Of a DNA stretch of 64,000 nt, positions 1 to 40,895 are shown piece by piece. Positions within the stretch are counted from its first letter, which is position 1, and every line of letters starts with the position of its first letter. The position numbers were made by a program, and so were the translations under genes. Below the pieces are notes generated by a model. That model was not told the DNA's origin, did no database searches, and saw only the letters and a list, made by a program, of their open reading frames with translations. Source of the DNA: Dyadobacter arcticus (GTDB lineage: Bacteria > Bacteroidota > Bacteroidia > Cytophagales > Spirosomataceae); assembly GCF_011762185.1 (NCBI RefSeq), contig NZ_JAASQJ010000006.1, positions 1 through 64,000 of the forward strand. The letters run 5' to 3'.

Positions 1-48
1 GAAAAAATATCAAAAAATAAGAAAGTAGTAAAAAATTCTATTTTTACG

Positions 49-93
49 TGACTCATAATCAGTAGGTGCCTGGTTCGATTCCAGGTGGGCCCA
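49..93 (+). tRNA. 3' half of a CAU-anticodon tRNA (5' half missing)
   Basis: The sequence carries the end of an anticodon stem-loop (anticodon CAT at 54-56, loop 52-58), a variable region, a complete T arm (stem 69-73 and 81-85, loop 74-80) and the 3' acceptor strand (86-92) with discriminator A93. No CCA is encoded. The matching 5' acceptor strand (GGGCCCA) and D arm should lie at about 17-48, but that stretch is A/T-rich and contains neither. Pairing in the anticodon stem holds for three base pairs and then fails. It could be elongator Met or Ile2; the CAU anticodon alone does not decide. I read it as the displaced tRNA end left by an integrating element. Confidence 0.85.
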
Positions 94-99
94 CTAATA

Positions 100-135
100 A
101 AAAGCACTTAGCATTTATCTGCTAGGTGCTTTTTT
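100..135 (+). terminator. Rho-independent terminator after the tRNA remnant
   Basis: An imperfect hairpin with AGCAC/GTGCT and AGC/GCT pairing across a short loop is followed by a run of T. It begins a few bases after the tRNA 3' end, so it is probably the native tRNA terminator. Confidence 0.75.
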
Positions 136-572: not shown

Positions 573-637
573 TTTTAATGCCACGAAGGCACGAATGATA
601 CACGACTCAACCTATTCGTGTATTCGTGGCATTAAAA
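573..637. repeat. Long inverted repeat of the CACGAAT type, likely terminator
   Basis: Arms 573-596 and 614-637 match at 22 of 24 positions and are separated by 17 bases. The right arm includes the stop codon of the esterase gene (632-634), and on the minus strand the hairpin is followed by T-rich sequence. The repeated unit GCCACGAA..CACGAAT recurs in part at 52349-52391, so this may be a dispersed repeat acting as a terminator. Confidence 0.7.
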
Positions 638-1822
638 ACTCCTCGCGAACCTAATGAAATTCGCCCAGTCGTAAGCCGTCATATTGTGCTCTCCATCACG
701 AATATGGTAAGCAATCGGGGGAATTATATAAGGCTCGTTGATTCCGGGAGGACTAGCGGGTAAATCTGGGTGCAGGCCATACAAAGCATAAGTGCTTTCC
801 GCATTTTTTAACGCCAGGAATGTGCCCTTTGGATCAGCCCAGAGGTCTTTGGAAGCATTGGTGGCATATATTGGCCTCGGCGCTACCAATGCAATAAGCA
901 TGTGCTGGTCTACGGGTAACAGGTTTTCCTTATCATTGAATTTTTTGTAATTATTATTAAACCAATGCGGAAAGGAAGTATTAATCCGGCTGATACGTTC
1001 ACCAAACTGCCTTCGGGCAAGGGCTGCACCCGAATTTCCTGAACAATTGGTAACACATGCGGCGAACCGCTGATCTTGCGCCGCAGCCCACAAAGAGGCC
1101 TTTCCTCCACGCGAATGCCCGACAATGATTACTTTTTTGGCATCCAGGTCTTTATCTTTTTCAAAATAGTCCATCACCCGGTTCGCGCCCCAGGCCCATG
1201 CACCGATTGCCTTCATCCCATTATCCATTTTCAACTGCTCTGGATATAGCTGCAAGACGCCATTCATATATGTATCCTTGTTGTCGGGTGCGAGGTCATC
1301 CACATGAAATGTTGCGATAGCGAAACCGGAGTCTATCAGCATTTCAGCCGGCCAAAATTCGCTTTTCTTAATCCGTGTCGGATCTGTGTTATCCTTGCCT
1401 CTGTTATTAATTAACAAAAATACAGGCGAAGGTGCAGCAGCTTTGGAAGGGACAAACAAGACCAAGTTTATTTTTACAGATTTTTGATTTCTAAATATTT
1501 CAATCAAAACCTGTTTCAATATCGCCTTTCCACCCATTGCAGCACCATCGTCGCTCACGATCATGCGCCTCACGCTATCGTAGGCAGTGGGCATCTGCCC
1601 ATAAATATTGTCTTCAAACAATTTGAGAATCTCAGGACGCCGTTTGGTTTCCCATGTCTTTTGGTTGCGGACCTTTTTGCCAGAAACCATTTTTAGGGCG
1701 TCCGGCAGAACGTAGGAAGGGACTTTTGATTCGTCGTAGTTTTGGGCTTTTGCGGCGAGGAATGGGAAGAAAGGGAGGATGGCGAGGAGTAAAAGGGATA
1801 TTATGGAGCGAATTGTTGACAT
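632..1822 (-). CDS. Secreted CE15-like glucuronoyl esterase
   Basis: This 396-residue alpha/beta hydrolase begins with a clear signal peptide (residues 1-26, ending AKA). The nucleophile motif GHSRGGK at 235-241 places the catalytic serine at 237. The following SGNSG..RR.GE segment and a late histidine in RDGEHN (His379) resemble CE15 glucuronoyl methylesterases, which cleave ester links between lignin alcohols and glucuronoxylan side chains. The length fits that family. It probably acts in the periplasm or outside the cell on plant cell wall material. A more general acetylxylan-esterase-like role is the alternative. A strong hairpin at its 3' end suggests it ends its own transcript. Confidence 0.75.
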   Translation of the reverse strand: MSTIRSIISLLLLAILPFFPFLAAKAQNYDESKVPSYVLPDALKMVSGKKVRNQKTWETKRRPEILKLFEDNIYGQMPTAYDSVRRMIVSDDGAAMGGKAILKQVLIEIFRNQKSVKINLVLFVPSKAAAPSPVFLLINNRGKDNTDPTRIKKSEFWPAEMLIDSGFAIATFHVDDLAPDNKDTYMNGVLQLYPEQLKMDNGMKAIGAWAWGANRVMDYFEKDKDLDAKKVIIVGHSRGGKASLWAAAQDQRFAACVTNCSGNSGAALARRQFGERISRINTSFPHWFNNNYKKFNDKENLLPVDQHMLIALVAPRPIYATNASKDLWADPKGTFLALKNAESTYALYGLHPDLPASPPGINEPYIIPPIAYHIRDGEHNMTAYDWANFIRFARSF

Positions 1823-37520: not shown

Positions 37521-38426
37521 TCAATGCTTGTTTCCTTCCAAAACACTAAAAACATGCAAAACTTGTGGAAAAAGGGCATCCATATATTCTATAACGCCGC
37601 CTGTGCTACCGGGCATCGTGATAATGAATGTTTCTCCTGCAAAACCTGCAACGGACCTCGAAAGCATGGCAGTTGGAATTCTTTCCTGTCCGTAGCTCCG
37701 TGCAGCTTCGGCTATTCCGGGAATTTCGCGGTCGAGTAATTCGGCAACCGCTTCTGGGGTAACATCCCGATGCGACAGGCCGGTTCCGCCCGTAATTAAA
37801 ACCATTTGATAATCGGCTGCACAAAGTGAACTTATCTTTTCCTGAATGCTCACTTTATCATCCGGCACAATACTGTAGTCTTGCACGGACAACTTTATCG
37901 TTTCCAATTTTTCGATAATTTTTTTGCCGGATTTATCTTCTCCAATTCCTTTCGAGATGCTGTCTGAACAAACAATTACCGCGATTTTGAGATGTTCAGG
38001 TACAGCTTTCCGGTCACTTTTTCCGCCTTTTTTTTCCAATAACCTGATATTCCTGATCTCAATACCTTTATCGATGGGTTTGAGCATATCGTACATGGTC
38101 AGTGCCACCACGGATGCACCGTGCATAGCCTCCACTTCGACGCCTGTTTTGTATATTGTTTTGACAGTTAGTTCTATAATGATAGTCAATTCCTCAATCC
38201 TATATTTTACAGCAGTATACTCGATAGGTATCGGATGACAATCCGGCAAGAGGTCCGGAGTCTTTTTTACCGCCAAAAATCCCGCCGCTTTGGCCATTTC
38301 AAAAACATCCCCTTTTGGGACATTTCTGCTTTCAATAGCTGCAATCGTTTCGGGCTTACTCACCTGGACAATGGCCTGCGCGGTTGCAATTCTCAGGGTA
38401 TTGGTTTTATGGGTAATGTCGACCAT
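37521..38426 (-). CDS. moaCB: Bifunctional MoaC-MoaB fusion protein
   Basis: This 301-residue protein joins two activities. Residues 1-148 are MoaC (cyclic pyranopterin phosphate synthase), with LPDCHPIPI, VEVEAMHGASVVALTMYD and conserved Asp/Lys in YDMLK. Residues about 149-301 are MoaB/MogA-like (molybdopterin adenylyltransferase) with VIVCSDSIS, TGGTGLSHRDVTPEA and MPGSTGG. The fusion is known in Bacteroidota. It puts two sequential steps on one chain and means no separate mogA is needed here. Confidence 0.93.
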   Translation of the reverse strand: MVDITHKTNTLRIATAQAIVQVSKPETIAAIESRNVPKGDVFEMAKAAGFLAVKKTPDLLPDCHPIPIEYTAVKYRIEELTIIIELTVKTIYKTGVEVEAMHGASVVALTMYDMLKPIDKGIEIRNIRLLEKKGGKSDRKAVPEHLKIAVIVCSDSISKGIGEDKSGKKIIEKLETIKLSVQDYSIVPDDKVSIQEKISSLCAADYQMVLITGGTGLSHRDVTPEAVAELLDREIPGIAEAARSYGQERIPTAMLSRSVAGFAGETFIITMPGSTGGVIEYMDALFPQVLHVFSVLEGNKH

Positions 38427-38501
38427 TAGTTAATGAGTGAATTTTGAATGAGTGAATGATTGAATGTACGTCAGCCTTTGATGGCCGACGGCCGAAGTTC
38501 A

Positions 38502-38951
38502 TCATCCATTTTCCTTCCAAACGTACTCTCCTTTATCCCCAATCAATTCCTTTCCAAAAATCGGGACGTTGGCTTTGACTTCTTCTACAATAAATTCGGA
38601 TGCTTCGAAGGCGGCGCGGCGGTGGGGGGAGGATACAAAGACAAAAAGGCTGATCTCACCAGTGGGAACGATGCCAAGGCTGTGGTAAATGTGCAGGCAT
38701 GTCAACTCAAATTTGGCGAAAGCCGCTTCACGAATTGCATGAAAGGTTTTTTCAGCCATTTCTTCATAAGCGGAGTATTCAATGCCCGTTACAATTCCCT
38801 CATCTTTCTGATCGGCCCTGATTTGTCCAAGGAAAATAGCATGTGCACCAATCGTCGTTTTGGACTGATGGCTGGCAATGGACTTTGATACAAAGTCCGG
38901 ACTTATCGGGCCCTGCACAAATACTTTTTTAGGCTTATGGATCTTTTCCAT
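38502..38951 (-). CDS. moaE: Molybdopterin synthase catalytic subunit MoaE
   Basis: This 149-residue subunit has the MoaE layout: GAHAIFLGQIR, YEEMAEKTFHAIREAA, H..LG.VPTGE.S.FV.VSSPHR, and FGKE with the reactive lysine near the C terminus. With MoaD it puts two sulfurs into the cyclic pyranopterin. It lies 75 bases before moaCB on the strand; the spacer holds short GAATGAGTGAA repeats and no gene. Order and direction fit a moeA-moaD-moaE-moaCB-moaA operon. Confidence 0.94.
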   Translation of the reverse strand: MEKIHKPKKVFVQGPISPDFVSKSIASHQSKTTIGAHAIFLGQIRADQKDEGIVTGIEYSAYEEMAEKTFHAIREAAFAKFELTCLHIYHSLGIVPTGEISLFVFVSSPHRRAAFEASEFIVEEVKANVPIFGKELIGDKGEYVWKENG

Positions 38952-38976
38952 TCACATGTTTTAATGATTGTCAATA

Positions 38977-39216
38977 TTAACCGCCTGCAAATGGCGGCAA
39001 TACCGCTATTTCAGCTGCTAGCTCAATAGGTACAAAATCCTCCGAAATTTTTTGGTTAACGGCAATCTTGAATTTCTTCTCACGCATGGAAGGATATTTC
39101 TCCAACAACAAACCGCGGAACTTACCTACCGTCAATTGCTCATCCATTGTCCAAACCTCGTCAGCCTGACCGGCCATTTCTGCCAGCATTCCAAAGTATG
39201 TGATATGAACACTCAT
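38977..39216 (-). CDS. moaD: Molybdopterin synthase sulfur carrier MoaD
   Basis: This 79-residue ubiquitin-like protein ends LPPFAGG, with the Gly-Gly terminus that is adenylated and turned into a thiocarboxylate before it supplies sulfur to MoaE. Length and the beta-grasp pattern fit. The gene lies 25 bases upstream of moaE and 21 bases after moeA, so they form one operon. Confidence 0.93.
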   Translation of the reverse strand: MSVHITYFGMLAEMAGQADEVWTMDEQLTVGKFRGLLLEKYPSMREKKFKIAVNQKISEDFVPIELAAEIAVLPPFAGG

Positions 39217-39237
39217 GTCTTAATTTTGATTAATATT

Positions 39238-40428
39238 TCAAAAAGGAAGCAGATGAACTTCCACCAACTCTCCCGATTCCACTTTACTTTGGCTTACCGG
39301 TAAGTAAATAATGGCATTAGCAACAGCAAACGAGCGTAATGCAAACGATTCCTGTCCGTCTAATGGCATTACCTCGTCACCTTCGACAAGCGCCTTCAAA
39401 AATTCATCCCGCTCACCGTCAAACGAATATGCATATTTACTGGGCAGTTTCAAGGATCTGAGAAAAGGATCTTTTCGCCCGGTCATGATCCTGATGGCTG
39501 GAAGCACGTACTCATAGTAACAAACAAGCGATGAAGCAGGATTCCCAGGAAGCGCAAAAAATAGTTTTTCTTCCCTTTTCCCAAACATCAGCGGCTTACC
39601 AGGCTTCTGCCTCACTTTGTAAAACACCTGTTCGGCGCCGATTACCTGCAAAGCAACACCCACAAAATCATAATCGCCGACTGAAATTCCACCTGAAGCC
39701 AGGATCACATCATTGTTTTCGGTCAATTCCTTGAACGCTTGAATAGTAGAATCCAGGTCATCGTCTGCGTATTTTAACTCAATATCAAAAATGCCTTCCT
39801 GCGATAATGCTGCAATGAGCATGGCCGAATTTGACTCGTAAATCTTCCCCGCAACCAAGGGCTCGCCCACTTTAAGCAATTCATCGCCTGTTAATAGCAA
39901 GCCAATTCTCGGCTTTCTGAATACTGTCACCTGGTTAACATTCATGCCCTGCAAAAAGCCGATACTTCCGGGAGAGAGGTAAGTACCCTGAGTTAATGCT
40001 ACCGCACCTTCACTGATTTGTCTGCCAATTTCCCGCACGTTTTTCCCAGCTGATACCGGGAATTCATTGATAACGATTTCATTTTCAACCAATGACGTAT
40101 GCTCTTGCATAATCACAGCCGTAGCTTCTGCGGGAACCCGCGCGCCTGTAAATATCCGGATCGCATTTCCGCTAATCATCTCAGAAACTTCCGTTTGCCC
40201 CGCTTTTGATTCGCCAGTAAGTTTCAGGATTGTCCCATTTTTAACAATATCTGTGTGAATGATTGCATAGCCGTCCATGGAAGATTGCCGGAACGAAGGC
40301 AACGAAATGGTCGCGATAACGTCCTCAGCCAGAACATAACCCAGAGCATCCGCGAGACCTCTCGTTTCGATTGATAGAACCTTGCTATTGGCAATAACTT
40401 TCTGCTTAGCCTCGTTAACAGTAACCAT
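39238..40428 (-). CDS. moeA: Molybdopterin molybdenumtransferase MoeA
   Basis: This 396-residue enzyme adds molybdate to adenylylated molybdopterin. Landmarks are SMDGYAII near the N terminus, TGDELL, LASGGISVGDYDFV, KPGKPLMFG and PGNPASS, all positioned as in the MoeA domain 3. The C-terminal domain with VEGDEVMPLDGQESFALRSFAVANAI is also normal. It is the first gene of the operon and its promoter must lie in the 467-base spacer upstream. Confidence 0.94.
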   Translation of the reverse strand: MVTVNEAKQKVIANSKVLSIETRGLADALGYVLAEDVIATISLPSFRQSSMDGYAIIHTDIVKNGTILKLTGESKAGQTEVSEMISGNAIRIFTGARVPAEATAVIMQEHTSLVENEIVINEFPVSAGKNVREIGRQISEGAVALTQGTYLSPGSIGFLQGMNVNQVTVFRKPRIGLLLTGDELLKVGEPLVAGKIYESNSAMLIAALSQEGIFDIELKYADDDLDSTIQAFKELTENNDVILASGGISVGDYDFVGVALQVIGAEQVFYKVRQKPGKPLMFGKREEKLFFALPGNPASSLVCYYEYVLPAIRIMTGRKDPFLRSLKLPSKYAYSFDGERDEFLKALVEGDEVMPLDGQESFALRSFAVANAIIYLPVSQSKVESGELVEVHLLPF

Positions 40429-40895
40429 AAAGATGAAAATGCGGTCGGAATTCGCAAGTTAATACATCATATACTCAAAAAATATTCCTCATATAGACTC
40501 TTCTTCTACACAAGTTCTTACAAAATTTTTGACTTTTTGCTGAGAATGCGGCATTTTCAAGCATGAAAATTTTCGTAAATATCTGATTATCAACTCAAAA
40601 GGTTATCCATAAATAACTTTATCTCGATAAAATCCTATTTTTATTCAGGGTTTACATTTGGCGACAAGATGTTTTTCCCAATCAAAATTTCAATTTTCGC
40701 TCGGTTAACAAGGATTTTCGAAGCCTTCGCCGTGAAACACCAAATCGCTAAATATTGAATTAATACTACAAATCTTTTTATAATTGCCTATAAATCAGAT
40801 TTTTACTCAAAAATGAAATTTTTTTAATACAAACTCCGTTATCTTTGCACTTTGGGCAAAGCCCTAAATCATATGTTTCACGAAATATCAAATGA
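40429..40895. other. AT-rich intergenic region between moeA and the transglycosylase
   Basis: This 467-base stretch holds the divergent promoters of moeA (minus) and the lytic transglycosylase (plus) and no gene. A/T-rich tracts such as 40495-40560 and 40590-40640 are visible. GGGCAAAGCCC at about 40854-40864 can form a small hairpin in the transglycosylase leader. No riboswitch-like structure is clear to me, although a Moco RNA element would be the expected one here. Confidence 0.5.
40840..40847 (+). promoter_or_regulatory. -7 box of the lytic transglycosylase promoter
   Basis: TATCTTTG matches TAnnTTTG exactly and lies 49 bases before the ATG at 40896. The -33 element is a weak T-rich tract only. 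Confidence 0.5.

Follow-up and report, generated by a model that had tools for sequence, protein, structure and literature searches.

What does half of a tRNA gene at the first bases of a contig record? The window analyzed here comprises the first 64,000 bases of C6, a contig of 270,262 bp in a genome of 12 contigs and 6.04 Mb, and it opens on such a half gene. The initial annotation, made from these letters alone, took it for an integration junction and placed a mobile element immediately to the left. Below we trace the missing part of the gene, the element beside it, the same locus in related genomes and, finally, the contig breaks that divide the locus in the assembly.

A tRNA 3' part at a contig edge

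First, comparison with the intact copy on contig C2 identified window 49-93 as the 3' part of a CAU tRNA gene, comprising the end of the anticodon stem, the anticodon loop, the T arm, the 3' acceptor strand and the discriminator base (Table 1). ARAGORN called no tRNA over the window, and the 29-nt 5' half, aligned without gaps to window 1-51, agreed at no more than 10 of its 29 positions; the 5' half is absent there. The terminator-like hairpin that follows has 15-nt arms that are 93% complementary and a folding energy of -19.9 kcal/mol (z -5.08 against 200 shuffles). The intact-copy comparison, ARAGORN, the 5'-half alignment and the hairpin energy thus bear out the earlier description of a CAU tRNA 3' part with a terminator and without a 5' half. 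The direct repeat that it predicted is also present and exact, with a length of 47 bp (49-95), that is the tRNA 3' part plus two bases, rather than the 45 proposed. When the 45-mer of window 50-94 was searched for in the 6.04-Mb genome with up to three mismatches allowed, four sites were found, near the end of C2, at the start of C6 and at both ends of contig C8. All four are exact and control matches numbered 0, which argues that the repeat is not due to chance. Further into the window, the sole tandem repeat above threshold lies at 38432-38466 (2.2 copies of 15 bases).

Table 1. Coordinates of features at the window start, on C8 and in the element of relative G046.
Feature	Position	Strand	Evidence or remark
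Element right end, last 48 bases before the core	window 1..48	+	identical to C8 end through the 95-base exact C8-C6 overlap; similar in L084, L085
47-bp core, displaced tRNA 3' part, probable attR	window 49..95	+	identical at C2 end and both C8 ends
tRNA(CAU) 3' part to the discriminator base, without 5' half	window 49..93	+	comparison with intact copy, ARAGORN
Terminator hairpin of the original (displaced) tRNA gene	window 99..134	+	arm complementarity, folding energy
First ORF of at least 80 aa in the right chromosomal flank; synteny marker	window 632..1822	-	alpha/beta-hydrolase-like by reading, without a family scan
Integrase, 470 aa	C8 39087-40499	-	PF00589 (E 2.2e-18), PF13102
TTGCAATA near the C8 ends	left 95, 107, 174 (reverse); right 40523, 40534		
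TTGCAATA in the G046 element	95, 107, 177 (reverse), 45754, 45765; 4 more inside		

The rest of the gene is found by way of C8, a contig of 40,714 bp that carries the same 47 bp at its start and at its end. Its first 95 bases are the end of C2 and its last 95 bases the start of C6, as exact overlaps, and C2 ends in an intact, contiguous tRNA-Met(cat) that continues into the left end of the element. This gene is called as tRNA-Met, and with its CAU anticodon it may be of the elongator methionine or the isoleucine type. The core at both ends of C8, the exact overlaps and the intact tRNA on C2 give the order C2 (whole tRNA), C8, C6 (displaced 3' part), an order that rests on exact overlaps and synteny across three separate contigs and not on continuous sequence. 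What the initial annotation had looked for to the left of the window is therefore present: a complete tRNA with an identical 3' end is the tRNA-Met(CAU) at the end of C2, an integrase gene lies 168 bp from the core on C8, and element genes stand between the repeats on C8, which is joined to C2 and C6 by the 95-base overlaps. Its placement of a mobile element beside the window holds in so far as C8 overlaps the start of C6 exactly; the element is on another contig, however, and the edge of the window is the edge of a contig. Because the window begins at base 1 of C6, the 48 bases available before the tRNA part were set by the assembler's overlap, 48 and 47 making up the 95 common to C8. With further copies of the core found at the two ends of the 40,714-bp C8, the reading as an integration junction stood, and we conclude that window 1-95 is very probably the attR junction of a 40.7-kb integrative mobilizable element, C8, in a tRNA(CAU) gene.

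Two other accounts of the half gene were considered. An old remnant or pseudogene without an element would be in line with the frequent tRNA-like fragments near the same tRNA in relatives, but no base of the 47 differs from the intact gene, and the contig that overlaps the window exactly, C8, carries integrase and mobilization genes; this overlap rules out a remnant, unless it is itself a misassembly, and leaves the idea very improbable. A tRNA gene split by a self-splicing intron, which would also place a 3' half next to a missing 5' half and which the initial annotation had named as the finding that would overturn its reading, is close to inconceivable, as the tRNA is contiguous on C2 and Rfam gave 0 matches at the gathering threshold and 4 weak matches, none of them an intron.

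Gene content and ends of the C8 element

Second, the genes of C8 indicate what kind of element it is. On its minus strand, from the right end inwards, lie the integrase, a protein of unknown function, an excisionase-type HTH_17 protein (excise domain TIGR01764 above its cut-off), a DUF5906 protein whose PHROGs match is a primase, a Toprim protein, a NikA-like/MobC protein, a relaxase (PF03432, E 3.6e-36), a further unknown protein and a RhuM-Fic protein, which matches the PADLOC candidate families PDC-S23 and PDC-S05. The accessory mobilization gene matches PF21983 and PF05713, and both it and the relaxase fall below the NCBIfam cut-offs for named families (101.5 against 400 bits for the relaxase). 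The cargo includes IS3-like and IS21-like transposases (assigned by their rve and IstB domains), regulators of the cNMP-binding, AraC and sigma-70 types, and members of the nitroreductase, dienelactone hydrolase, short-chain dehydrogenase, glyoxalase, S41 peptidase and glycosyltransferase families. Our Pfam scan covered 40 protein pieces of C8, with some ORFs of at least 80 aa lying outside it, and among these pieces no type IV secretion family was found. We rejected an integrative and conjugative element, since a complete conjugation apparatus is absent from the 40 pieces, and a prophage, since virion families are absent from them. Eight C8 proteins compared with PHROGs matched integration, HTH, primase or unknown families, or nothing. 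As in tRNA-gene islands, one junction has an intact tRNA, the opposite one has a displaced 3' fragment oriented the same way, and a tyrosine integrase lies near one end; and as in integrative mobilizable elements, a relaxase and an accessory mobilization gene occur without a type IV secretion system of the element's own among the 40 pieces. We therefore read C8 as an integrative mobilizable element from its predicted genes. Among the matches listed for the integrase as a protein query, the best identity was about 30% in plasmids and about 29% in phages, and a literature search found no paper on the C8 element.

At the left end of C8 (L011 44-100), a terminator hairpin of the element's own (-21 kcal/mol, z -4.22) directly follows the regenerated tRNA end. 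It is about 85% like the displaced one over tRNA end and terminator, and in several relatives sequence similar to this left-end terminator follows the tRNA. The motif TTGCAATA occurs eight times in C8, on both strands, and five of the eight copies lie in the terminal 372 bp. The binomial probability of this clustering by chance, 3.5e-9, is overstated in its significance, as both region and motif were chosen after viewing. The copies near the ends have almost the same positions in C8 and in the element of relative G046 (Table 1), and we regard the terminal copies as putative integrase sites of the kind termed arm-type.

From these features a course of events can be proposed. The tyrosine integrase of C8 would recombine the tRNA gene with the 47-bp copy of its 3' part that the element carries, within a core that starts at the anticodon stem-loop. 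The left end of the element would thereby rebuild the whole tRNA gene and supply its own terminator, while the original 3' part and terminator would be displaced to the right end, where the window starts. Excision would probably be aided by the excisionase-type HTH protein, and the relaxase would be expected to transfer the element through the conjugation apparatus of a helper.

One tRNA locus in relatives and its integrases

Third, the locus can be followed through related genomes. The tRNA is present in 48 of the 48 genomes searched, our own included, and in at least 8 of the 47 relatives the matches listed include a second 3' part on the contig and strand of the whole tRNA, 12 to 142 kb downstream of it (G033, two in G047, G006, G014, G023, G004, G030 and G046). 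The C2 sequence upstream of the tRNA matches in all 29 relative loci examined. A homolog of the first window ORF of at least 80 aa, at least 70% identical, occurs in 29 of the 47 relatives. Of these 29, 24 have the homolog and the tRNA on one contig, with the homolog 1,411 to 93,008 bp downstream and on the opposite strand; four have the two on different contigs, and in G014 the homolog lies 845 kb away on the other side. This linkage of tRNA and ORF in congeners indicates that C2 and C6 flank a single tRNA locus, which is a hotspot, so that a Dyadobacter tRNA(CAU) gene appears as a recurrent insertion site for elements with related integrases. The junctions, the gene content and the synteny can all be seen in the sequence itself.

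A comparison with one such element is provided by G046, whose 6.07-Mb contig carries an element of 45.9 kb flanked by two core copies; its integrase is 82% identical. At the nucleotide level it matches the mobility half of C8 (33959-38060 at 72% and 38141-40713 at 69%). The RhuM-Fic stretch matches at 77% and the first 120 bp at 95%, and this comparison gave no other cargo match. No clean empty site at the exact junction was found in six intervals (G020, G035, G026, G022, G009 and G044). The shortest of these, in G044, has an element-like left end behind the tRNA (94% over 72 bp), and the other five have other sequence. Directly behind the whole tRNA(CAU) in L130 (G009:C1) and L129 (G022:C24), we also observed head-to-tail tRNA-like units, about 72 bp apart, which have no 5' acceptor strand and carry a GC-rich extension in the T arm.

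The core search at integrase genes covered 24 of 30 loci, L104-L109 being left out. A core-like tRNA stretch was present next to the integrase at 20 of the 24 (that at L095 spans just some 17 bases), and L100, L102, L103 and L112 showed none. In a tree of 20 integrases, on which the tRNA targets are labelled by reading the anticodon loop next to the gene, the integrase at our locus (CAU core) is sister to that of G039 (Thr(TGT) core) with support 99/98, this pair joins G046 (CAU core) with support 100/99, and a third group of seven rows (100/98) has Asn(GTT) cores. CAU labels cluster on the tree no more than shuffled ones do (5 changes against a mean of 6.5, with 77 of 500 shuffles as low). 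Next to the labelled integrases the core opens with TGACT or a close variant and lies 168-195 bp from the gene, or 403-407 bp where the match begins inside the protein; the exception is G021 (L111), whose core begins with CGACTACGGATCAG. The common core start and spacing suggest that the anticodon stem-loop remains the point of contact even as the target tRNA varies. In L084 (G039:C15), compared with L083 and L085, integrases that are 82-85% identical stand at the same spacing from cores of different tRNA genes (CAU against TGT by loop reading), an instance of a change of target.

Contig breaks, attP and known systems

Finally, the way in which the assembly breaks at this locus may itself carry information. 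Contig ends share exactly 95 bases at six places (C2-C8, C8-C6, C5-C10, C10-C7, C6-C11 and C9-C11), which fits a de Bruijn graph with K=96, the value that ALLPATHS uses. C8 and C10 repeat themselves at their own ends, over 47 and 62 bp. This genome has a second island, C10 (12,840 bp; locus L044 1-12840), which is bounded by a 62-bp direct repeat and lies beside an intact tRNA-Phe on C7. It encodes an integrase, a NikA-like/MobC protein, a Toprim protein, an AAA protein, two NACHT proteins and a Fic protein that together with its neighbor matches the PADLOC candidate pair PDC-M59A/B. A 47-bp repeat alone cannot break such a graph. We built unitigs at K=96 under five models of the state of the element. 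The integrated element alone gave no contig break, and the integrated element with an empty site, with or without a circle, gave wrong contig ends. The integrated element with a circle and the tandem dimer each returned the exact observed ends of left flank, element and right flank, and both add for C8 a joining piece of 143 bp, which the assembly would drop. The same models fit C10, with a joining piece of 128 bp. Since the models with attP and without attB reproduce the breaks, attP would be in the data and attB absent or below the threshold of the assembler; in other words, the sequenced DNA would have contained element-element junctions, from either tandem copies or circles. In G007, too, contigs at the tRNA(CAU) gene end at the edges of a core, here of 50 bp, and overlap by 83 bases (33 and 50); the G007 contig C14 carries phage-type repressor and replication genes, and as its other end is broken in a repeat, one side is seen. 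Among the matches listed, contig ends fall at the core in at least 2 of the 48 genomes, and a D. alkalitolerans contig (L032) has no repeated ends.

Taken together, the modelled breaks suggest tandem copies or replicating circles. Excised circles that outnumber the empty sites and replicate like a plasmid give the exact ends, which a circle with an empty site does not, and C8 codes for primase-type proteins; tandem copies, however, account for the same data. We thus hold it conceivable, at a little short of an even chance, that in the culture C8, at tRNA(CAU), and C10, at tRNA-Phe, replicated as circles in excess of empty sites and lived partly as plasmids, a state then recorded in the break positions of a draft without recourse to reads. 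A tandem array of two or more copies in the chromosome is a tentative reading of somewhat lower probability: the dimer model returns the exact ends of both C8 and C10, but the two islands and the G007 element would all need to be duplicated. An assembler artefact or an unseen short contig, either of which would be silent on attP, seems unlikely. The smallest contig of the genome has 3,182 bp, so short joining contigs cannot be seen; yet the breaks fall exactly at both core edges of C8 and of C10, two G007 contigs each break at one core edge with a different overlap, and chimeric joins at the core should yield attB-type breaks equally often.

If the breaks do reflect attP, the contig ends of a draft hold usable clues to the duplication or excision of an island, a question for which reads or PCR are otherwise required, and public draft genomes could be screened for active elements by the position of the break (at the core edge, offset by the overlap minus the core length). 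In the accessible parts of papers from the literature search, contig ends are not used to infer attP, which does not show that the idea is unpublished.

Among known systems, the integrative mobilizable elements of Bacteroidota (with MobB/MbpB-like relaxases, in NCBIfam names) resemble C8 in their integrase, excisionase-type HTH and primase-type proteins and in the combination of NikA/MobC and a MobA/VirD2-type relaxase without a secretion system; with its relaxase at 101.5 bits against a named-family cut-off of 400, C8 is a distant relative. Salmonella genomic island 1, according to the available text of the reports, is a mobilizable island known in tandem arrays (PMC2297512) and as a circle replicating like a plasmid (PMC7826253), precedents for either reading of the breaks; its likeness to C8 lies in the proposed behavior only, as host, target and genes differ. 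Alike in kind are the tRNA islands collected by Islander, which, in the available text, are delimited by a regenerated tRNA and a displaced fragment, with a crossover at the anticodon loop as one of two main sites (PMC4383910). C8 shares the two end marks, the tyrosine integrase and the anticodon-loop crossover and differs in nothing of kind; it also brings a terminator behind the regenerated tRNA, a word absent from that available text (PMC4383910). The C8 junction is thus an ordinary junction of a tRNA-targeted island, in which nothing but the individual case is new, and the more interesting part is the inferred signature that such an element may leave in the breaks of its contigs.
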